From positions 1-64,000 of the forward strand of contig JAFYYG010000050.1 of assembly GCA_017557625.1 (NCBI GenBank): a DNA stretch of 64,000 bases, read 5' to 3'. Position numbers and translations under genes: made by a program. Positions 38,375 to 49,995 of this stretch are shown here, piece by piece (positions within the stretch are counted from its first letter, which is position 1; each line of letters starts with the position of its first letter). Source of the DNA: Muribaculaceae bacterium. GTDB taxonomy: Bacteria > Bacteroidota > Bacteroidia > Bacteroidales > Muribaculaceae. Under the pieces are notes generated by a model. That model saw only the letters and a program-made list of their open reading frames with translations, ran no database searches and was not told the origin of the DNA.

Positions 38375-39037
38375 ATGAAACGAAACGTTTTTTTATGGAT
38401 TTTAATGCTGGCAATTATTGTTCCTGCGCTGGCGTTGAGTGGCTGCAAGGAGAAGAAAAGCAGTCGCGACAAGGATGATGATAGTAGCTCAAGCAGTTCC
38501 GAAAGTGTTGAGGAAGAGAAAAAAACCGATATTTCGGGCAAATATATGCTTGATGAGGAAAGTGTTAGAATGCTATTTGCTAATGATGCCGAATCAGATA
38601 ATAGTGAAATGAATTTTAGCTGTGAGATGACTTTATATGACGACAATGAGCTTCAACTTACTTTTATGATTGATGCTTCTGAATATATTGAAGATATTGA
38701 AAACACTATGAATTATTATTTTGAAGTGTCGGGAAAGGGAATTTGGGAATATGACAAGAAAGATAGAATACTTACCACAGATATAAGGACTGCTGATATT
38801 TCTGATTTTACAGTCTCTTTTTTAGAAGATAATGAGCTGACCGATGCTTTTATTGCAGAATGTGGCGGTATGGATGGAGTGGAGAAAACTATGAAAGAAG
38901 CTGTCAATGAGGGCTTTCCTCCCAATGAGATTTGCGTAGAACAAGAGTTCAGAATCACTGAATTAACCGACGATGGCTTCTATGCCAAGACAACATCTGG
39001 AAAGATACAGAAGGTGAGATTCGTCAAGGTTGATTAG
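38375..39037 (+). CDS. Lipoprotein, paralogue of the 39140-39850 gene
   Basis: The lipobox LALSGC ends at Cys24, followed by a Lys/Asp/Ser-rich linker (about 25-52) and a domain starting DISGKYMLDEESVRMLF. The order of motifs (ISGxYxLDxES, then a strand set with SxYIxDIxNT, then FKxTxLxxDGF-xxK) matches the convergent neighbour, though identity is modest. Family not recognised. It probably sits on the outer or inner membrane. The two genes point at each other around a shared terminator. Confidence 0.65.
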   Translation: MKRNVFLWILMLAIIVPALALSGCKEKKSSRDKDDDSSSSSSESVEEEKKTDISGKYMLDEESVRMLFANDAESDNSEMNFSCEMTLYDDNELQLTFMIDASEYIEDIENTMNYYFEVSGKGIWEYDKKDRILTTDIRTADISDFTVSFLEDNELTDAFIAECGGMDGVEKTMKEAVNEGFPPNEICVEQEFRITELTDDGFYAKTTSGKIQKVRFVKVD

Positions 39038-39139: not shown

Positions 39140-39850
39140 CTAATAATTTACATTAACCTTCTCAAACTTAATTCTCTTTTCGCTGTCAAGAGGTTTGATT
39201 GTGAAACCGTCGGGCTGGAGTCGTGTCACTTTAAAAACTTGAGTGCCTTTAACTTTCTTCATTTCATTTTCAATATTCATCTCTTCCATAAGTTGCTGCT
39301 TCATAGCCTCTTCACCACCCAGTTGTCTTCTAATTTCTTTGGTTGTAGCATCTTCTTTGGCAAAACTGAAATTCATATCATTGATTTTTAGGTTGTCAAT
39401 AGAGACGGTGAGTTGCTTGTTGTCTTGGTCATGATACCATTTTCCATCAATGCCAATAATCATTTTCATTTTCAGTGTGTTACGAATATCTTTAATATAA
39501 AGAGAAGCATTATAAACCATTTGAATGTCAAGAGCATCGTCATCGTTGAAGTTGAAGCTTGTTAAAATGTCAACACTGCCTCCTTGGTCCTTAGCTGCCT
39601 TTTCAATGTCTTCTCCGAAAAATGCCTCGTAGCTCTCTTTGTCGAGATTGTATTCTCCCGAAATGAGTTTCTTCTTCTCTTTTTTACTGTCGGAGTCATC
39701 ATCACTTTCCACTTTTTCAGACTTCTTGCTGTCGGATGACTCATCGTCGTCATCATCACCGCCGCGGTGGTGTTTCTTTTCGCAGCTGATAGCTATCATC
39801 GGAACAATGAGAACTATCATCAAAATCCATAATAATCGATTTTTTTTCAT
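39140..39850 (-). CDS. Lipoprotein, paralogue of the 38375-39037 gene
   Basis: The N-terminus MKKNRLLWILMIVLIVPMIA then SCEKK gives a lipobox Cys at about 23. It is followed by a very acidic Asp/Ser/Lys linker (about 28-62) and a domain beginning LISGEYNLDKESYEAFFG, with SLYIKDIRNTLKMKM and FKVTRLQPDGFTIK matching the positions of SEYIEDIENTMNYYF and FRITELTDDGFYAK in its convergent partner. Function unknown. Confidence 0.65.
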   Translation of the reverse strand: MKKNRLLWILMIVLIVPMIAISCEKKHHRGGDDDDDESSDSKKSEKVESDDDSDSKKEKKKLISGEYNLDKESYEAFFGEDIEKAAKDQGGSVDILTSFNFNDDDALDIQMVYNASLYIKDIRNTLKMKMIIGIDGKWYHDQDNKQLTVSIDNLKINDMNFSFAKEDATTKEIRRQLGGEEAMKQQLMEEMNIENEMKKVKGTQVFKVTRLQPDGFTIKPLDSEKRIKFEKVNVNY

Positions 39851-39888: not shown

Positions 39889-41172
39889 CTATATTAAGTT
39901 GCAGGAATAAATCTTGGCAATGCCGTCGATGAAGGCATTCAGCTCATATTGGCAGAAGTCGCCGGTCCGCGCTATGTCGCCCGTCTCGTAGAAGCCTCTT
40001 GCCCTGCACGCGCCGCCGCAGATGTAGCGAATGGCGCACCGCCGGCATTTGCCTATGTTGTCAACCGAGAGGCTGGCGCATCGTTTCAGCGCCTCGCTGT
40101 TGCGGTAGATGTCTATAACACTTTTCTCATGCACATTGCCGGCGAAAAAATGCTCGTTGTGCAGCAACTGGCAGGGATACACGTCGCCTGTGGGTGAGAT
40201 GCTTATCTCGTTGTCACCGATGGCGCATTTCACGTTCTTGTGCTGCCGTGACATATCGAGCGACGACTCACAGTAGCTCAACGGATTAACGCCGAAGGCG
40301 TTTGTCAATGCCCAATAGTATTGCTCTCCGGTGATTGACAGCTCATCATTGGCGAGGTCGCTCACGGGGAACAGCGGGGCGAAGTTGAGTCGGGAACCGA
40401 ATTTTTTAGACATAGGTTCTACCTGGTCGATGTTCAGGCGCGTGACGGTCATCGACAGGGTGTAGTCAATCTCATTCTTGTCGAGCAGTTCAACTGCCCT
40501 CATCACTTTGTGGAAGTTGTCGCCACGCGTCAGGCTGTGGGTGGCGGGAGTGGGGCCGTCGATGCTCAGCGTCACCAGGTCGAAGTGCTGCTTTATGAAG
40601 TCGATGTTCTTGTCATTGATAAGCAGCCCGTTAGAGAGCAGGAACAACTCGCATTGCCGCTGCTTGATATGCTCGGCGATGTCTTTCCAGTGGGGATTGA
40701 GCAATGGTTCACCGCCAGTGATGGTGAAGGTGATGTTGCTGGAAAGGGAGCACAAATCATCTATAATATGTCGGTATTCATCAACGGTTAGCGGCGCATA
40801 CTTGTTCTCCACCCGCTCAGCGGCGTAGCAGTACTTGCAGTTAAGATTGCAGAGGCTTGACAGAGACAGATGCACGCTGTGCAGACTGTTGTCGCGCTGG
40901 TGCTCGGGTGGCTCTATGTTTCCCAGGACACCTGATTCCTCGACATGAGCGCAGAAATCGAGCACCTGCTGGCGCTTGTCTTCGCCGAGAACCTGGACCG
41001 CCGCGTCGGCGATGTCGTCAAACGTGTTGGTTCCGTCAAAAAGCGACATGATAAGATGCCCCAATTGGTTTGTCACCAGCCATGCCGGTATATTGGGGTT
41101 GATGTAGATGACCTTGTCGTCGCGTGTAAATACCTCTACATCGTGGGGCAATTTATATCGAGTGTCGCTCAT
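39889..41172 (-). CDS. Radical SAM/SPASM peptide-modifying enzyme with PqqD-like domain
   Basis: Residues 1-85 look like a PqqD-type peptide-recognition domain (LPHDVEVF...LFDGTNTFDDIADAAVQVL). The radical SAM domain has CNLNCKYC (Cys108, 112, 115 bind the SAM [4Fe-4S]) and GGEP at 153-156. The SPASM tail has Cys316, 334, 376, 379, 385, 389 and 407 in the usual spacing for two auxiliary clusters. Enzymes of this build make thioether or C-C crosslinks in RiPP precursors. The gene begins 30 bases after the Cys-rich repeat protein on the same strand, the obvious candidate substrate. Confidence 0.88.
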   Translation of the reverse strand: MSDTRYKLPHDVEVFTRDDKVIYINPNIPAWLVTNQLGHLIMSLFDGTNTFDDIADAAVQVLGEDKRQQVLDFCAHVEESGVLGNIEPPEHQRDNSLHSVHLSLSSLCNLNCKYCYAAERVENKYAPLTVDEYRHIIDDLCSLSSNITFTITGGEPLLNPHWKDIAEHIKQRQCELFLLSNGLLINDKNIDFIKQHFDLVTLSIDGPTPATHSLTRGDNFHKVMRAVELLDKNEIDYTLSMTVTRLNIDQVEPMSKKFGSRLNFAPLFPVSDLANDELSITGEQYYWALTNAFGVNPLSYCESSLDMSRQHKNVKCAIGDNEISISPTGDVYPCQLLHNEHFFAGNVHEKSVIDIYRNSEALKRCASLSVDNIGKCRRCAIRYICGGACRARGFYETGDIARTGDFCQYELNAFIDGIAKIYSCNLI

Positions 41173-41202
41173 CAGCTATATTCAGTTATATATCGCTTTT
41201 GG

Positions 41203-41880
41203 TTAGTTGCCGCTGCAGTTATAAGATGAGCCGCACTTGCCGCCACCACCTGCGCATTCGTATGACGATCCGCACTTGCCGTGACCGTCGGAACCTTGAC
41301 CAGCGCAGCTGTATGACGAGCCGCATTTGCCACCACCGCCAGCGCATTCGTATGACGAGCCGCACTTGCCGTGTCCGTTAGAACCTTGTCCGCTGCAGCT
41401 GTAAGAAGAACCGCATTTGCCACCACCGCCAGCGCATTCGTATGACGAGCCGCACTTGCTGCTGCCGCTACTGCTGCCTTGACCTGAACCTTGCCCGGCG
41501 CAGCTGTAGGAAGACCCGCACTTGCCGCCACCGCCCGAGCACTCGTAGGACGAGCCACACCTGCCTTGACCGCCGGCACCTTGTCCGCTGCAGCTATAGG
41601 ATGAGCCGCATTTGCCGCCACCGCCAGCACACTCGTATGATGAGCCACACTTGCCATTGCCGTTAACACCCTGGCCGCTGCAGCTGTATGACGAACCGCA
41701 TTTTCCGCTTCCTCCAGTGCAGCTATAAGATGATGAACATGCTCCCAGTCCAGAAGGTTCTGTAGCATTGGCGTTAAATGTTTCTTTGCCTCCAAAGAAT
41801 AACGATGGCGACACCACTCCCGCTGCAATAAGTGCCGCGAGTCGCTTGATGAAATCTCTGCGTGACGGGTTCTTGTTCAT
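41203..41880 (-). CDS. Tat-exported Cys-rich repeat peptide, candidate RiPP precursor
   Basis: The N-terminus SRRDFIKRLAALIAAG is a twin-arginine signal (Arg7-Arg8). From residue 47 to the end (225) are 12 modules of the type KCGSSYxCxGxG, each with two Cys spaced C-x5-C (24 Cys in all). Modules alternate KCGSSYSC plus a Gly/Gln/Asn-rich spacer (17 aa) with KCGSSYECAGGGG (13 aa), so the true unit is a 30-aa dimer; module 6 has a longer spacer. The open frame runs to 41970, but the promoter at 41909-41916 and the Tat motif fix the start at 41880. I know of no named family with this repeat. Modification by the adjacent radical SAM enzyme is inferred from position. Confidence 0.85.
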   Translation of the reverse strand: MNKNPSRRDFIKRLAALIAAGVVSPSLFFGGKETFNANATEPSGLGACSSSYSCTGGSGKCGSSYSCSGQGVNGNGKCGSSYECAGGGGKCGSSYSCSGQGAGGQGRCGSSYECSGGGGKCGSSYSCAGQGSGQGSSSGSSKCGSSYECAGGGGKCGSSYSCSGQGSNGHGKCGSSYECAGGGGKCGSSYSCAGQGSDGHGKCGSSYECAGGGGKCGSSYNCSGN

Positions 41881-41908: not shown

Positions 41909-41947
41909 CAAATATAATAAGAACGATTGAAATTTTTACTATTTTTG
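41909..41947. promoter_or_regulatory. Divergent promoters: RiPP operon (-) and esterase (+)
   Basis: The minus strand reads TATATTTG at 41916-41909, giving a leader of about 23 bases for the Cys-rich peptide. The plus strand reads TATTTTTG at 41940-41947, about 22 bases before the esterase ATG. The two -7 boxes lie 23 bases apart, so the units may influence each other. Confidence 0.5.
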
Positions 41948-43926: not shown

Positions 43927-44571
43927 ATGAAAACCATAACATTAGGAAAAGCAGGCGATCAGCCATTTAAAATCAAGGGTATTGGAGTTAGCAAATATCA
44001 TGCAACAGTAACCATTGATGACTATGGCCGTTGGATTCTTGCCGATAACAACTCGACAAACGGTACTTTTGTGCGTAATGAGTTATCTGGTGAATTTATG
44101 AGAGTGGGGCCGCAAGGAATGCAGATTTCAGAGATGTCGTTTATCGTCCTTGCTGCCGATAATTCGGCAGGTTGCTGCTTTTATGCCAAGCAACTCATCA
44201 ACCCTGGCGACTATGTTGACGAGCATCTTTACATGCGCAACAAAAAACTCGAGTTTGACCAGGAAGAAGAAAATGTTACCAAACGTGCCAAATTGGTGAG
44301 AGTAGGAATTTTCACCATTATGCTTATTTTTACAATTGGCACTATTTTTTGGCAGATAGCAGATCCTAAATCCACAGGAATGATGTTTACAATCTATCGT
44401 GCACTGTCACTCTTGACAATGGGTGCCAGCACATTCTATGATGCTCAAAGCAAGCGCGCAAAGATTATCAAGCGTCGCAAGAAATTCTGCCAGTGTCCAA
44501 ATCCCGAATGTGACTATAAGCTCACTCCCGATGCTATAGAAAACTTGAAGTGCCCTAAGTGTGGTAAATAG
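43927..44571 (+). CDS. FHA domain protein with membrane helices and zinc ribbon (1)
   Basis: An N-terminal FHA domain (about 1-100) shows GVSKYHATV (Ser22, His25) and NNSTNGTFVR (41-50), the phosphothreonine-binding loops; the first strands are shortened and the usual Arg before Ser-x-x-His is missing. Two membrane helices follow (about 124-145 and 152-172), then a C-terminal zinc ribbon with CPNPEC and CPKC. FHA domains bind phosphothreonine, so a partner of the Ser/Thr kinase at 54.6 kb is likely. The next gene is a tandem duplicate. Confidence 0.85.
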   Translation: MKTITLGKAGDQPFKIKGIGVSKYHATVTIDDYGRWILADNNSTNGTFVRNELSGEFMRVGPQGMQISEMSFIVLAADNSAGCCFYAKQLINPGDYVDEHLYMRNKKLEFDQEEENVTKRAKLVRVGIFTIMLIFTIGTIFWQIADPKSTGMMFTIYRALSLLTMGASTFYDAQSKRAKIIKRRKKFCQCPNPECDYKLTPDAIENLKCPKCGK

Positions 44572-44604
44572 AGTGGCTTTGCCAAGTTGTCACAGTACTG
44601 AAAA

Positions 44605-45258
44605 ATGAAGACTATAACATTAGGTAGAGACGGCGATCAGCCCTTTAAGATCAAGGGGATTGGAGTCAGTCACATTCATGCTACAGTCACCATCGACGAT
44701 TTTGGAAGATGGACACTCGCTGACAACAATTCAGCCAACGGCACTTATGTGCGTGACGAAGTTACTGGTGACCTCATTAGGGTTAGCGACAAAGGCCAAA
44801 CAATTTCCCAGATGTCGTTTGTCGTTCTGGGTTCTGATACAGCAGCAGGTTGCAGTTTCTATGCCAATCAACTCACCAATCCTGGTAACTTTGTTAATGA
44901 GTACTTATATATGCGCAACAAGAAGCTGGAGTTTGACAAAGAAGAAGAAAAAGTTGCTAGGAATGCTAAATGGGTGAGATTGAGCATTTTCATACTAATG
45001 CTACTTTTTACTGTTGGCAGTATTATTTATCAGATTTTTGATGATTCACATGAAAGTATGAACGTTATGTTATGGGGTTTTCGTGGTCTTTCACTCTTGA
45101 CAACGGGTGCGATGACTTTTTACGATGCTCAAGGCAAACGTTCGAAGATTATCAAGAAACGCAATAAGTTTAACCAGTGCCCCAATCCCGAATGTCACCG
45201 CAAGCTTAGTGGCGGCGAGATTGACAACTTGATATGTGGCAGATGCCAGAAGTTATAA
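44605..45258 (+). CDS. FHA domain protein with membrane helices and zinc ribbon (2)
   Basis: Tandem paralogue of the preceding gene: same order of FHA (GVSHIHATV; NNSANGTYVR in place of NNSTNGTFVR), two membrane helices and a zinc ribbon (CPNPEC, CGRC). The first 30 residues are nearly identical (MKTITLG..GDQPFKIKGIGVS), the middle less so. STNG to SANG removes a residue commonly found in FHA loops, so ligand preference may differ. Gap to the preceding gene: 33 bases. Confidence 0.85.
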   Translation: MKTITLGRDGDQPFKIKGIGVSHIHATVTIDDFGRWTLADNNSANGTYVRDEVTGDLIRVSDKGQTISQMSFVVLGSDTAAGCSFYANQLTNPGNFVNEYLYMRNKKLEFDKEEEKVARNAKWVRLSIFILMLLFTVGSIIYQIFDDSHESMNVMLWGFRGLSLLTTGAMTFYDAQGKRSKIIKKRNKFNQCPNPECHRKLSGGEIDNLICGRCQKL

Positions 45259-45313
45259 CAAACGATATGATTATTAACCTAGCTTACACTAAGTGGAGCA
45301 AAAAACAAAAAAT

Positions 45314-45700
45314 ATGGAAACAGAGAAAAAAGATTTATCTCAACTTTCAGAAGCTGACCGTAAGAAATTGGCAGGATTGACAATTAGTGTTGGTGTTGGC
45401 ACCGTTGCGGCTACAGGGGCCACGGTTGGTGCCGTAGTGAGTAACGTCATGAGCTATGATGAAGACACCCAAAGCACCGCCCATGAAGAAGTCATCATCA
45501 CTGAAGACAAAATGGAGATTGATGACGACCCAGTCGTTATCAGTGAAGATGAAATTGGAGTTGACGAAGATGTTTTGGGGGATTCGCTTGATGTCCTTGA
45601 CCAAGATGTCGATATGTATCCAGAGCCTGATGACACCTATATCGACGATATGTCGTTTGATGATGATTTTCTTGATGACTCTATCGATATAGTGATGTGA
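45314..45700 (+). CDS. Acidic glycine-zipper protein (1, short)
   Basis: 128 aa. Residues 20-46 (AGLTISVGVGTVAATGATVG and on) are a small-residue, zipper-like hydrophobic segment, followed by an Asp/Glu-rich tail ending DDSIDIVM. It shares its METxK start, zipper and acidic tail ending in D-I-V-M with the products of 45881-47110 and 48718-49995. The start at 45314 is chosen over an in-frame GTG at 45293 because of the shared METxK start and the shared leader hairpin upstream. Function unknown; it lacks the middle domain of the longer relatives. Confidence 0.7.
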   Translation: METEKKDLSQLSEADRKKLAGLTISVGVGTVAATGATVGAVVSNVMSYDEDTQSTAHEEVIITEDKMEIDDDPVVISEDEIGVDEDVLGDSLDVLDQDVDMYPEPDDTYIDDMSFDDDFLDDSIDIVM

Positions 45701-45732
45701 GATAGTGAATCCACGAAAGACATAAAAATCAT

Positions 45733-45786
45733 TTCGTCATCAAGACCCTGGTATTCGTCACGAAATCCATAGGGTTTCGTCACGAA
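45733..45786 (+). promoter_or_regulatory. Helically phased palindromes, candidate operator
   Basis: TTCGTCACGAA, a perfect palindrome around C, occurs at 45754-45764 and 45776-45786, 22 bases apart, with a half-match TTCGTCA at 45733-45739, 21 bases before. The spacing of about two helical turns and the position 37-70 bases upstream of the -7 box at 45823-45830 suggest a transcription-factor site for the long acidic-protein gene. Confidence 0.45.
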
Positions 45787-45822
45787 AGAGGCAAAAAAAT
45801 TGTATCGGCTTTACCAAAGCAT

Positions 45823-45830
45823 TAATTTTG
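45823..45830 (+). promoter_or_regulatory. -7 box of the acidic protein (2) gene
   Basis: TAATTTTG, 50 bases before the ATG. The leader between them contains ATTAACC and the hairpin GCCTC-ACGAC-GAGGC (45850s), a layout shared by the other acidic-protein genes. Confidence 0.55.
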
Positions 45831-45880
45831 CGATGTAAATATTAACCAAGCCTCACGACGAGGCTATAAATAAATATAAT

Positions 45881-47110
45881 ATGGAAACTAAAAAAGCAAA
45901 TTTTATCCCAGTTTCAAATGAAATTGGTAAGAGTAAGAGATTGAGTGGATTAGCAATAGGTCTTGGCGTGGCCGGCGCAACAGGAGTTGGCGCTACTGCT
46001 GGTGTTGTGTTAAACAATATGTTAGGGAAGAAGCACTATGACCTTGACGACGATGACGACGACACCGATGCTGAGAATAATGAAGACCTTAACGATGAGA
46101 ACACACGTGAAAAGTCAAACACTCGTCATGATGATGACAATCACAATCATCCTCACGAGCCTAGACACACTCACGTTAGAGAACCTGAAGATATCAGCGA
46201 CGACACCACCGATATCCCCACTGATGACATAATTGGACAGCCCGAAGATGTGCCTGAGGTTCCCGAATTGGTGCCCCTAGGCTGGTATTCCGAGATTGAT
46301 GAGGATGGCAATGAAGTTTATTTCTTCCTCATTGGCGATGAGGAATCGGGTGGCGCTATGATTGCATTGGCCGAGAGCATTCCTGGTTCTGGAATTTATG
46401 ACACTGTCATCGACTTGACTACCGAACCTTTCACTGTGGAGCACATCGATGAGTTTTATACCCGTGAGGAACTGGAGACTGTAATTCCCAATCCAGAACG
46501 TGAGTATGAAACCGAGGACGACATCAATTATGATGACATTGTTGATGACGATGGCGACGACGATGATAACGATGATGATGTTGATGGCGACGATGATTTG
46601 ATTGACAATGGTGATGTGATTGACAACGAAAATGATGACGTAATTGTTGACGACGATGTAATCATTGACGGCGACGATGTAATCATTGACGGCGACGATG
46701 TAATCATTGACGGCGACGATGTGATTATTGACGATGACGATGTGGTTATTGACGATGACGATGTGATCATTGACGATGACGATGTGATCATTGATGACGA
46801 TGATGTGATTATTGACGACGACGATGTAATCATTGATGACGATGAAGAAATCGTTAACGAAGACGATGTGATCGTTAATGAAGACGATGTGATCGTTAAT
46901 GAAGACGATGTGATCGTTAATGAAGACGATGTGATTATTAACGAAGACGAGATAGTTATTGATGGAGACAATATCAATGTTGATGAAGAAGTCTATGGCG
47001 GTCCTGTAGAAGGGCTTGATCCTGAAATCGAGGATCCTTATATCGAAGAGGATCTCTACCCCGACGAGGATGTGCTTAATGAGCCAATGGACGATGACAT
47101 TGTTATGTAA
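45881..47110 (+). CDS. Acidic glycine-zipper protein (2) with heptad DDVIIDx repeats
   Basis: 409 aa: METKK start; Gly/Ala/Val zipper (22-47); KKHYDLDDDDD (50-60); acidic/His linker; a folded-looking block (133-200, LGWYSEIDEDGNEV ... PGSGIYD ... FYTREELE) shared with the 48718 product; then about 17 seven-residue repeats of the type DDVIIDG/DDVIIDD/DDVIVNE (about 244-366); and a tail ending MDDDIVM. The zipper may insert in a membrane or self-assemble; the repeats could bind divalent cations such as Ca. Both ideas are inference. No characterised relative is known to me. Confidence 0.75.
   Translation: METKKANFIPVSNEIGKSKRLSGLAIGLGVAGATGVGATAGVVLNNMLGKKHYDLDDDDDDTDAENNEDLNDENTREKSNTRHDDDNHNHPHEPRHTHVREPEDISDDTTDIPTDDIIGQPEDVPEVPELVPLGWYSEIDEDGNEVYFFLIGDEESGGAMIALAESIPGSGIYDTVIDLTTEPFTVEHIDEFYTREELETVIPNPEREYETEDDINYDDIVDDDGDDDDNDDDVDGDDDLIDNGDVIDNENDDVIVDDDVIIDGDDVIIDGDDVIIDGDDVIIDDDDVVIDDDDVIIDDDDVIIDDDDVIIDDDDVIIDDDEEIVNEDDVIVNEDDVIVNEDDVIVNEDDVIINEDEIVIDGDNINVDEEVYGGPVEGLDPEIEDPYIEEDLYPDEDVLNEPMDDDIVM
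46613..46980 (+). repeat. 21-bp coding repeat (heptad DDVIIDx)
   Basis: Units such as GACGATGTAATCATTGACGG and GAAGATGTGATCGTTAATGA-like versions run in frame with period 21. Adjacent units are most alike, so local duplication is recent. The length is likely to vary between strains by slippage. An open frame on the opposite strand through the same bases is only a mirror of the repeat. Confidence 0.85.
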
Positions 47111-47120
47111 AAGCAACGAC

Positions 47121-47183
47121 GGGTGTTCTATGAATTGCATTGGCCTTGCTCATGATGCGGTAGATGCGATTTGTGGAACACCC
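47121..47183 (+). terminator. Hairpin after acidic protein (2)
   Basis: GGGTGTTC (47121-47128) and GAACACCC (47176-47183) pair across a loop with internal dyads. There is no strong T run, so termination may be partial and the zinc-ribbon gene may be read through. Confidence 0.45.
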
Positions 47184-47227
47184 TAATTGATATTGTGGTT
47201 TTATTAATTCCAAAAAAGATAATAAAA

Positions 47228-47620
47228 ATGAACAGAAGTAATGTTAAAGTTCTAAAGAGACAGTGTGACTCTTGTGAGAAGACTTTTAAAGTGAAAGTGG
47301 TGATGCCTGGACGCTATAGGGTGCGTTGCCCGCACTGCAATAACATGGTGAGGTTTGTGGTTACTAAAGAAGAGGCTCCCGCCAAGACCGTGATTGCTCC
47401 TCGCCTTATTGTGCCTGAACTGGGACATGCCGAGAAAGTGAAAGACAAGTTCTATGTTATCAAGAAGCGCGGCATTGTTGGACACCCCTATAGGGCCATA
47501 TGCCCCGATTGCCACACCTCAATGTCGATTATCCCTGCCGAAGCTCGCAAGGTTCTGAGGACAAAATGTGAGAAATGCGGCACCACCATTGCCTATAAAG
47601 CTGTGGAGCCCAAGGGATAA
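47228..47620 (+). CDS. Double zinc-ribbon protein
   Basis: 130 aa with two zinc ribbons: Cys13/16 with Cys34/37 (CDSC, CPHC) and Cys92/95 with Cys114/117 (CPDC, CEKC). Both align with the two ribbons at the N-terminus of the FHA protein at 50119-51318 (PGRYxxxCPxC; CPxCHxxxxIxP), so this gene is that protein without its FHA domain. The frame is open from 47171, but the ATG at 47228 has the same preceding context (GATAATAAA) as that of the paralogue. Function unknown. Confidence 0.8.
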   Translation: MNRSNVKVLKRQCDSCEKTFKVKVVMPGRYRVRCPHCNNMVRFVVTKEEAPAKTVIAPRLIVPELGHAEKVKDKFYVIKKRGIVGHPYRAICPDCHTSMSIIPAEARKVLRTKCEKCGTTIAYKAVEPKG

Positions 47621-47758
47621 GATTAACGAGAAGTATCTGTTCAGTGATGTCCTCCTTATCAAACTGAGAATGTTTGGTTGTAATGCGGAGAAAAACAAGA
47701 TAGCTGAATAGTTATAACGAAAAAACAATAAGTTATTAACATTTAAATCTTTGTAGAT

Positions 47759-48541
47759 ATGAAAAGAATATCAGCGATACTATTTATGGCGTTTGCCATT
47801 TTTGTGATGTGTGGCAATGCCGCCGCCAAGAACTATTGCTTCTGTGTGGGGTTGTCGAAGTGTAACTCACCTAACCTGGCGGATATCTCCTCGGCACAGT
47901 ATGATGCCATTGATTTCAAGAAGGCGCTATCCAAGCAGGGCTATAAAGGTAGTGTGATTGTTAACCAATATGCTACCCGCGAAAATATACTCAAGCGCGT
48001 AAAAAACGTGGTGAAAGCTGCTAAGAATCCCGATGACAAGATTGTCCTCTTCTTCGCAACTCACGGAGATCCCGATGGTTTTCTTTACACCTACGGCGGT
48101 GGAGGTGTTTATTACAGGGAGATTATTGACATCCTTGCCCAGAGCAGGACTAAGCACGTCTATGTCTTTGTGATGGCATGCTTCTCGGGCACTACTGCCA
48201 GCAAGGGCTTGGATTCGGATCCTAACTGGAGTGACAACGCTATCAAGCGAGGCATCACCTTCGTCGTGTCGTGCCGGCCTAACGAGACTTCCAAGAGCAT
48301 CAATAACTCTAACAAAAACATTACCCCTACCCGCCACTCAGTGTTTGGCAACGCACTTATTAAAGGTTTCCGCGGACAGTCCGACCGCAATGGCGACCGC
48401 AAGATCACCATCATGGAGCTCTTTAAGTATATTTACAATGAGGTTACTACGCGCATGGACTTTGACGATCCCGATATGGCTCAGCATCCACAGCTCATAG
48501 GTCCCTCAAGTGAGCATGACACCATTGTCGCCAAGTGGTGA
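47759..48541 (+). CDS. Exported caspase-like protease (peptidase C14)
   Basis: A signal peptide (MKRISAILFMAFAIFVMCGN then AAA) indicates export. The caspase-fold p20-like core has the catalytic His102 in FFATHGDPDG and Cys141 in VFVMACFSG, each after a hydrophobic strand as in metacaspases/caspases. QYDAIDFKKALSKQGY near 47-62 matches the usual N-terminal helix. No extra domain follows; an Asp-rich DRNGDRKIT loop lies near 213-221. Substrate preference cannot be read from the sequence; bacterial relatives often cut after basic residues. It lies between two acidic-protein/zinc-ribbon gene pairs. Confidence 0.88.
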   Translation: MKRISAILFMAFAIFVMCGNAAAKNYCFCVGLSKCNSPNLADISSAQYDAIDFKKALSKQGYKGSVIVNQYATRENILKRVKNVVKAAKNPDDKIVLFFATHGDPDGFLYTYGGGGVYYREIIDILAQSRTKHVYVFVMACFSGTTASKGLDSDPNWSDNAIKRGITFVVSCRPNETSKSINNSNKNITPTRHSVFGNALIKGFRGQSDRNGDRKITIMELFKYIYNEVTTRMDFDDPDMAQHPQLIGPSSEHDTIVAKW

Positions 48542-48648
48542 TGGGCACTAGAAGCATTTTTGTAATCAATTCCCGATAGTTGGTCACAAAAAGCCCATAT
48601 TTCATCCAAAAAGGTCAAAATTATTTGATTTCGGGATGAACGTCATAT

Positions 48649-48656
48649 TATTTTTG
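48649..48656 (+). promoter_or_regulatory. -7 box of the acidic protein (3) gene
   Basis: TATTTTTG, with the leader again holding ATTAACC and a hairpin (TGCCCAC / GTGTGGCA) before an AT-rich stretch and ATGGAAAC. Confidence 0.5.
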
Positions 48657-48717
48657 TCATGAAATTATTAACCCTGCCCACCTTAGTTGTGTGGCAATAA
48701 ACAATAAAATCAAAATT

Positions 48718-49995
48718 ATGGAAACTACAAAAAGAAACGTTACCCCAGCGATTCCGGGTATGAATCAGGGCGATGAGGAAAAAGGTAAGGTATCTAAAGG
48801 TGCTGCAATAGGTACTGCTGTTGGAGTGGGCGTGGCTGCCGCCGCTGGTGGCACTGCTGCTGGTGCCACTGTAATCAGCGATGCGCTTAACAAGAAGCAC
48901 TACGACTTGGATGACGATGATGATGAAGAATTGAACGATGATACCCAAGGAGACGATAACGAAGACGATGGTTACTATGATGACGACAAAGACCTCGATA
49001 GAGACGACAAAATGCCTCCCGAGAGGCGTGGCCGTGAGCAAAGAGATGACGTAAATCGTCGCGAAACCGAGAACCGTCGCAACGATGAAGAGCGTAATGT
49101 TCCCCCCAGGAACAATAACAACGATAATAATGATGGCAACGACATCGATGATAGAACCGACACTATCATAGAGAATGACCAGATTGATGTTGATGTCAAG
49201 GAAGATGAGTGGTCTCCTGTGGGGTGGCGCACTATCGCCGACCAAGATGGCAACGAGGTGACAGGAATGCTCTTCGAGGATGGCAACGGCGGCTATGTGC
49301 TTATCACCGAGGGTGAGCCAGGCTCAGGTATTTATGACTTGGCAATGAACCCCGATACTGGTGAGTCACTGCCTATTAACGAGCAGTTTGCTTACACACG
49401 CGGCGACCTAGAGGCAATGGTAGATACCGAGGGTGGATACATCGCTCCTGGAGCTGAGGACAGAATGTTTGCCGAGAATGACGACATCAACCAAGACATC
49501 ATCGTTACTGACGATGGCGAACTCGTTGCACAGAGTGACCGCAATGGTGGTGATGATGTGTACAGCGCTAATAATGAGGGTATTATCTATGAAGATGACC
49601 TTATTGATGGTCCAGTCGATGAGGATATAATCATCACAGATGACCAGATTGCTATGACCGACGATGAAATCATCATGGAAGACCAGACCGACATTATCAT
49701 CGAAGATGATCAGATTGCTATGACCGATGATGACATAATCATGGATGACGATAGCGACATAATTGTCGACGATGAGCAGCTTGCTATGGTTGACGAGGAG
49801 GTGATTGTCAATGACGAAGAGCTTGAACCCTATCTTGGCGACGATGATGTTGCTGAGGTTAATGAGGAGCCAGTAGAGTTTGTTGACGACAGCCAGGAGA
49901 TGGTTGCCGAGAACTCAGCCTACGTTCCTGATGAGGCCTATGATGACCCGATGGATGCCGATATCTATGACGACCCTGGCGTTGACATGGTGTGA
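48718..49995 (+). CDS. Acidic glycine-zipper protein (3)
   Basis: 425 aa: METTK start, zipper (28-52), KKHYDLDDDDD (59-69), a charged Asn/Arg/Asp linker, a block (165-235: WSPVGWRTIADQDGNEV ... PGSGIYD ... YTRGDLEAM) homologous to that of the 45881 product, then acidic repeats with recurring DDxIIxDDQIAMTDDEIIM elements, and a tail ending DPGVDMV. Its repeats are longer and less regular than the heptads of its relative. The ATG at 48718 is preferred over an in-frame upstream codon at 48691 because of the shared METxK start and leader. Function unknown. Confidence 0.75.
   Translation: METTKRNVTPAIPGMNQGDEEKGKVSKGAAIGTAVGVGVAAAAGGTAAGATVISDALNKKHYDLDDDDDEELNDDTQGDDNEDDGYYDDDKDLDRDDKMPPERRGREQRDDVNRRETENRRNDEERNVPPRNNNNDNNDGNDIDDRTDTIIENDQIDVDVKEDEWSPVGWRTIADQDGNEVTGMLFEDGNGGYVLITEGEPGSGIYDLAMNPDTGESLPINEQFAYTRGDLEAMVDTEGGYIAPGAEDRMFAENDDINQDIIVTDDGELVAQSDRNGGDDVYSANNEGIIYEDDLIDGPVDEDIIITDDQIAMTDDEIIMEDQTDIIIEDDQIAMTDDDIIMDDDSDIIVDDEQLAMVDEEVIVNDEELEPYLGDDDVAEVNEEPVEFVDDSQEMVAENSAYVPDEAYDDPMDADIYDDPGVDMV

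Follow-up and report, generated by a model that had tools for sequence, protein, structure and literature searches.

Reviews such as PMC8172795 describe sactipeptides as single small peptides that carry 1 to 4 thioether links and are made by Bacillus and a small number of other Gram-positive genera. One of them is streptosactin, given as NASCGPSHSCGGGR with a mass change of -4.03 Da in the available text of PMC12445099. Its bonds are listed as Cys25-Ser28 and Cys31-Gly34 in the accessible part of PMC8172795, where one passage prints Cys15 for Cys25, and the accessible portion of PMC13361665 describes two four-residue rings. Repeats appear in two further systems in the available sections of PMC9062424: TvgA/TvgB, with TVGG repeats and cyclopropylglycine, and the uncharacterised Cluster 59, with an Asp-Cys motif repeated up to six times.

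The DNA analysed here (the window, 64,000 nucleotides of a Muribaculaceae contig) carries a Tat-type repeat precursor followed by a radical SAM/SPASM enzyme. To the reading that we favour we give an even chance: a RiPP-type cassette whose product would be a string of streptosactin-like (type 2) sactipeptide units, formed in the cytoplasm and then carried out by the Tat system.

The repeat precursor and its neighbouring enzyme

The features of the locus are as follows.

41909..41916, minus strand: TATATTTG, candidate Bacteroidetes -7-like promoter box, from its likeness to TAnnTTTG
41203..41880, minus strand: repeat precursor, 225 aa, 12 C-X5-C modules, 24 Cys
41764..41880, minus strand: twin-arginine signal, SRRDFIK, residues 1-39 (TIGR01409; putative cleavage site)
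41206..41739, minus strand: repeat region, 12 modules, with predicted double-ring chemistry
41173..41202, no strand: intergenic gap of 30 bases, precursor stop to enzyme start
39889..41172, minus strand: radical SAM/SPASM enzyme, putative maturase, 427 aa (reading frame, NCBIfam, Pfam, Cys set)
40933..41172, minus strand: probable RRE/PqqD-like N-terminal domain, residues 1-80 (StsB alignment, sub-threshold Pfam, AlphaFold)
40828..40851, minus strand: CNLNCKYC, radical SAM cluster site, CxxxCxxC at residues 108-115
39952..40227, minus strand: SPASM domain, Cys set complete, residues 316-407 (Pfam and Cys positions)

The precursor frame runs from an ATG at 41880 to a stop codon ending at 41203, and the frame and the Cys count bear out the original prediction of 225 residues, 12 modules and 24 Cys. 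The predicted distance of 30 bases to the enzyme is exact, with the enzyme starting at 41172. The paired Cys are separated by five residues in all 12 modules; 11 of these read [KR]CGSSYxC and the first is ACSSSYSC. Synonymous codons differ from module to module with the residues unchanged and dN/dS is low in the repeats (0.03-0.08, six species pairs), so that their conservation is not due to chance. In the enzyme dN/dS was 0.07-0.15 in five of the six pairs, the sixth being saturated; repeats and enzyme are both under purifying selection between species.

The sequence TAnnTTTG, which we take to be the Bacteroidetes -7 promoter consensus and by which the candidate box was identified, lies 36-41 bases 5' of the ATG in five of seven loci examined and is absent from the other two (G1220 and MAG47). 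In two genus members, G011 (L047:8201-8204) and G010 (L048:9178-9181), the stop codon of the precursor and the start codon of the enzyme overlap within ATGA, which suggests translational coupling.

The Tat signal that had been predicted scores 24.6 bits against NCBIfam TIGR01409 (cut-off 16.7), in a scan that covered, of the genus precursors, the one in the window; this precursor gave no other NCBIfam match and no Pfam match above cut-off. The signal may end at a possible cleavage site between ANA and T. For the related Marinilabiliaceae precursor MAG47 there was no NCBIfam match at E<=1e-4, and its twin-arginine motif, SRREFLQ, was read by eye. Of 10 complete Tat-type precursors, 9 have an A-x-A downstream of residue 25 and before the first Cys; there is none in that of MAG47, so its chain may stay anchored. 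TatC was detected in 12 of 15 genomes examined, including that of the window. It was not found in G017 and G052 (82-83% complete genomes), nor in the genome of the spirochaete G1053, whose precursor has no Tat signal.

The enzyme has the predicted CxxxCxxC site and complete SPASM Cys set (Cys316, 334, 376, 379, 385, 389 and 407, plus Cys365), and both are present in 14/14 full-length family enzymes. The best NCBIfam family for all four enzymes scanned was StsB (NF045574, streptosactin maturase), aligned over nearly their whole length: 157.2 bits for the window enzyme, 171.7 for L056, 155.0 for L057 and 206.0 for L209. These scores of 155-206 are far short of the cut-off of 625, and by rule the enzyme therefore falls outside the StsB family. 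Among PDB sequences the family profile matches CteB best, a maturase that forms thioethers. A PqqD-like domain had also been predicted. Pfam lists PqqD at sub-threshold scores for the window enzyme (14.0 bits) and G007 (17.0 bits; cut-off 23.4), and does not list it for the other four of six enzymes scanned (G011, L056, L057 and L209). The N-terminal 80 residues form three strands and three helices in an AlphaFold model of weak to moderate quality (mean pLDDT 65.2, 7 sequences), as is expected of an RRE. The domain is thus probable from the near full-length StsB alignment and the modelled N-terminus, although its Pfam score is only sub-threshold.

Distribution and genomic settings of the cassette

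Fourteen full-length family enzymes were found, 11 in the genus, one in Marinilabiliaceae and two in spirochaetes. A repeat ORF lies directly upstream of 13 of them (10 genus members, MAG47 and both spirochaetes); the remaining enzyme, G1211, starts at a contig edge, and the repeat ORF of G052 was read from a contig edge. Among 101 genomes (that of the window, 60 of the same genus and 40 from other families), the precursor occurs in eight, seven with the enzyme and the eighth, G030, as a leader remnant. In another set of 101 genomes, all from the genus, the enzyme itself occurs in 12 at E<=1e-60 (11 full-length plus a C-terminal fragment in G1249).

A scan of one genome per species (84,980 species), with the best 80 of 471 relatives taken further, gave at least one Marinilabiliaceae MAG (L056, the MAG47 locus; 53% identity), whose Tat-type precursor has 12 modules, and at least one Spirochaetaceae MAG (L057, from G454; 32% identity). 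A survey of 296 Spirochaetota genomes at E<=1e-20 gave 10 matches, of which only G454 and a newly added genome, G1053 (L209), had a full-length enzyme with a repeat ORF. As the scan of species genomes followed the best 80 of 471 relatives, and its DNA patterns would miss an enzyme like that of G1053, members elsewhere may exist. The next spirochaete match, G882 (1.9e-30, over residues 50-404), was rejected as a member, and the motif is absent from its DNA examined.

Other searches returned little. An order-wide precursor profile matched 2 of 393 genomes, that of the window and G067 (leader only), and a class-wide enzyme search at E<=1e-30 matched 1 of 395, the window's own. Among relatives of G453 one in 81 matched, G453 itself; likewise, each of the two spirochaetes was the sole match among its own relatives (1 of 97 and 1 of 98). 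Viral contigs gave 69 loci with weak relatives, the motif being in none, and plasmids five distant matches. The cassette is rare in the genome samples surveyed.

All non-overlapping ORFs of at least 80 aa from six genomic settings were compared by BLAST (E<=1e-8, low-complexity filter on). The enzyme matched in every pair of settings. The precursor did so in the three pairs that can be formed from MAG47 and the two main genus settings, and two genes shared by the two spirochaete regions were the only further matches. No peptidase, protease, transporter, regulator or immunity gene common to the six settings was found in this comparison. Precursor and enzyme are a conserved two-gene cassette. 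In one genus setting (the window, G011 and G010) the cassette stands by truA and an esterase; in another its neighbours are a CorA transporter, DUF3332 and a transglycosylase. In two genomes, G030 and G1249, the esterase and truA-type genes stand in the corresponding position and the cassette has decayed. G030 retains a leader remnant alone, with no close enzyme, and G1249 reads as a leader start joined directly to the final third of the enzyme; both loci have lost both genes. Genomes with the repeat and without the enzyme were sought, as the original prediction had suggested, and among the 101 relatives and the 393 genomes of the order only the G030 relic was of this kind. Co-occurrence, joint loss and shared context all support the dedicated RiPP-type pair of enzyme and precursor that had been proposed.

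In a tree of 12 of the 14 family enzymes (all but G017 and G1231) and 30 others, L210 being left out, the 12 fell on one side of a branch with support 100/99. MAG47 was nested within the genus rows, with G1220 outside (support 97/96). This placement tentatively points to transfer between families; the composition of G1220 was flagged as unusual.

Several neighbouring genes were recorded. At both spirochaete loci an HTH_3 regulator lies upstream of the precursor on the opposite strand (L219:7179-7550 and L226:5189-5539). In G1053 it is the next gene to the precursor, and the two HTH_3 genes have no mutual BLAST match. In G1053, and there alone, the second gene downstream encodes an M48 peptidase. 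Near the G454 cassette, Pfam identified consecutive protein kinase, von Willebrand A and PP2C phosphatase genes (L226:11627-14732). In the window, two lipoprotein-like genes that look alike by eye lie beside the cassette on opposite strands (38375-39037 and 39140-39850); both have acidic Ser/Asp/Lys-rich stretches, and neither had a BLAST match in the other settings. A same-strand row at 43927-49995 contains two FHA-domain paralogues (PF00498), acidic proteins, a zinc-ribbon-like protein and a caspase-fold peptidase (PF00656, 47759-48541). The acidic proteins at 45881-47110, with DDVIIDGDD-type tandem repeats, and at 48691-49995 had no Pfam match. The row resembles a signalling or protease cluster that is as yet unstudied.

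Module composition and proposed chemistry

The pattern C-[GS]-x-[SAG]-x-x-C-x-G holds for each of the 134 modules read in 13 precursors, where the G030 and G1249 relics and G1211 are excluded and G052 contributes six modules at its contig edge. In every module the second residue is Gly or Ser, the fourth Ser, Ala or Gly and the ninth Gly; position 10 is Gly in 73, Gln in 51 and another residue in 10. The motif C[GAS].[SGA]..C.G[GQ] was confined to cassette precursors in a scan of 206 loci (2.09 Mb, excluding genus loci L001-L023 and L047-L056). The spacers between modules vary by lineage. In the window precursor, spacers of 10 and 6 residues alternate, with a single 15-residue spacer mid-chain, giving the 17- and 13-residue periods of the original prediction. 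The long spacers are 10 residues in most genus members and 12 in MAG47 and, mostly, in G1220, and all spacers are 6 residues in both spirochaete precursors. The alternation is lineage-specific.

The modules are found on three kinds of carrier. Beside the Tat-type precursors, four modules (TCGMGLGCSGGGG plus one variant) close a 225-aa protein in L057, which by eye has an N-terminal signal-like stretch and two hydrophobic stretches and is of a non-Tat, membrane type. The L209 precursor is a plain 89-aa peptide of four CGLGTGCSGGGG modules after a 40-residue leader, in which no export signal was seen. The spirochaete forms would be exported by another route or not at all, so Tat is no intrinsic part of the chemistry. 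No motif common to the three leader kinds was seen, so the module itself may be the recognition tag of the enzyme.

When streptosactin is placed Cys on Cys, its acceptors land on module positions 4 and 10, which are the ring positions we propose. Of the non-nested, streptosactin-like Cys-x-x-[Ser/Gly] spacings, the first ring fits 134/134 modules, and the residue three after the second Cys is Gly in only 73/134. Against the streptosactin core, 1152 of 40320 column permutations of the window modules score as well, so that the actual modules surpass about 97% of them, and the best window score (4 of 8) is equalled by about 11% of random octets of the mature composition. Beyond composition the likeness is modest, and it is suggestive rather than strong; independent support comes from the enzyme match. 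The original prediction that the system matches no named class was not supported: in Cys spacing and in acceptor positions the modules agree with streptosactin, and StsB is the best named family of the enzyme. Its suggestion of Ser, Tyr or Gly as acceptors agrees with position 4 and with the Gly-rich tail. Tyr is an unlikely general acceptor, because position 5, Tyr or Phe in Bacteroidales, is Leu or Thr in the eight spirochaete modules.

We propose that a cytoplasmic radical SAM/SPASM enzyme with a probable RRE-like domain would act on each C1-G-S-S4-Y-x-C7-[SA]-G-[GQ]10 module. A first thioether from sulfur to alpha-carbon would join Cys1 to residue 4 (Ser, Ala or Gly) and a second would join Cys7 to residue 10 (Gly or Gln), giving up to 24 four-residue rings per chain. 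As residue 10 varies and residue 9 is always Gly, the second acceptor could instead be residue 9. Each of the 12 modules of the window precursor would then probably be one streptosactin-like double-ring unit. The computed MH+ of CGSSYECAGGGGK is 1175.446 unmodified and 1171.414 modified. The modified chain would be exported by Tat and would stay in the periplasm or leave it. We infer the modification of the modules, the thioether type, the ring positions, the order of modification and export, and the biological role.

More tentatively, and with somewhat less than even confidence, we suggest a poly-sactipeptide, a pre-cross-linked chain that would be exported whole and serve as a polymer or as a store of twelve units, in a cassette that has been grafted onto three carriers in two phyla. 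Folded proteins are tolerated by Tat, and export of the whole chain by this route would follow because it would no longer be plain and unfolded.

The same modules could instead carry beta- or gamma-thioethers of the ranthipeptide type, for example from Cys1 to an acidic or polar residue 6, which we consider unlikely. CteB, a SCIFF ranthipeptide maturase, is the solved sequence closest to the family profile (5wgg, 6.9e-32), the window enzyme matches PapB at 89.5 bits and the SCIFF maturase family at 87.4, and position 6 is Glu or Asp in 70/126 Bacteroidales modules. However, StsB outscores both PapB and SCIFF for that enzyme, and position 6 is varied: it can also be Ser, Asn, Thr, Gln, Gly or Ala, and in 8/8 spirochaete modules it is Gly, which has no beta carbon.

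The exported product may act as a polymer, or as a polyprotein cut at Lys into single units. In a doubtful form of the latter, compatible with the sactipeptide reading, cuts after Lys or Arg following export would free twelve 13- or 17-residue sactipeptides acting on other bacteria. In 10 genus precursors Lys or Arg precedes Cys at 104/104 internal module boundaries and occurs nowhere within module positions 1-9, which would permit the release of single units. Streptosactin itself ends in Arg, and it is a narrow-spectrum growth inhibitor according to the accessible parts of PMC8172795 and PMC13361665. Against this, the boundary Lys is present at 7/11 positions in MAG47 and 0/6 in the two spirochaetes, whose forms would lack such release; the settings have no protease or immunity gene in common, the M48 peptidase being confined to G1053; and the constant copy number of 12, in 10/10 complete Bacteroidales precursors, suggests that the whole chain matters.

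It is improbable that the Cys pairs remain thiols or disulphides or bind metal, with the enzyme performing epimerisation or an anSME-like, formylglycine-type oxidation: many Tat cargoes carry metal cofactors and anSME is among the matches of the enzyme (TIGR03942, 101.9 bits; 4k36, second to CteB for the family profile at 4.9e-28 and slightly ahead of it in a single-sequence PDB search with L209), but StsB scores above TIGR03942, which is itself far under its cut-off of 349.45, the sulfatase motif [CS]-x-[AP]-x-R is in 0/13 precursors, and the Cys spacing and Gly-rich tails are constant on three different carriers.

Comparison with known systems

If the sactipeptide reading is true, tandem exported units in Gram-negatives would bring polymers of protein size within the reach of radical SAM RiPP chemistry and link it to Tat export, and the locus would be an easy test system, since each module reports the same reaction. 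The module occurs on three carriers, which suggests that it could serve as a transplantable tag for recognition, with which small thioether rings might be programmed. A search of the open-licence literature found nothing on a Tat-exported radical SAM repeat protein.

The TvgA/TvgB and Cluster 59 systems resemble the cassette in pairing a radical SAM enzyme with a tandem-repeat precursor, and Cluster 59 repeats also contain Cys. As given in the available sections of PMC9062424, however, the TVGG system is a five-gene cluster with transporters and has no Cys, Cluster 59 has its Asp-Cys motif and a recombinase rather than C-X5-C, and no Tat carrier is mentioned for either. The SCIFF/CteB ranthipeptide systems share the radical SAM and SPASM domains and, probably, an RRE-like N-terminus, and provide the best solved match. 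They differ in that TIGR03974 gives 87.4 bits against a cut-off of 425 and that the acceptor-like position 6 is not conserved here.

Streptosactin (GGG; maturase GggB/StsB) shares the C-X5-C spacing, a Ser or Gly three residues after each Cys, the Gly after the first Cys, the Gly-rich tail and an enzyme that aligns over nearly its whole length to StsB. Its clusters have a protease and an Rgg/SHP regulator, neither of which is common to the six settings here; the HTH_3 genes at the two spirochaete loci and the M48 gene of G1053 are not Rgg/SHP as far as Pfam shows. Instead of one unit there are 12 (or 4) in tandem, on a Tat or other carrier, in Bacteroidales and spirochaetes. If the proposed chemistry is right, it belongs to the known type 2 sactipeptides; as far as our searches tell, the tandem format of protein size, the Tat export, the swapping of carriers and the phyla are new.
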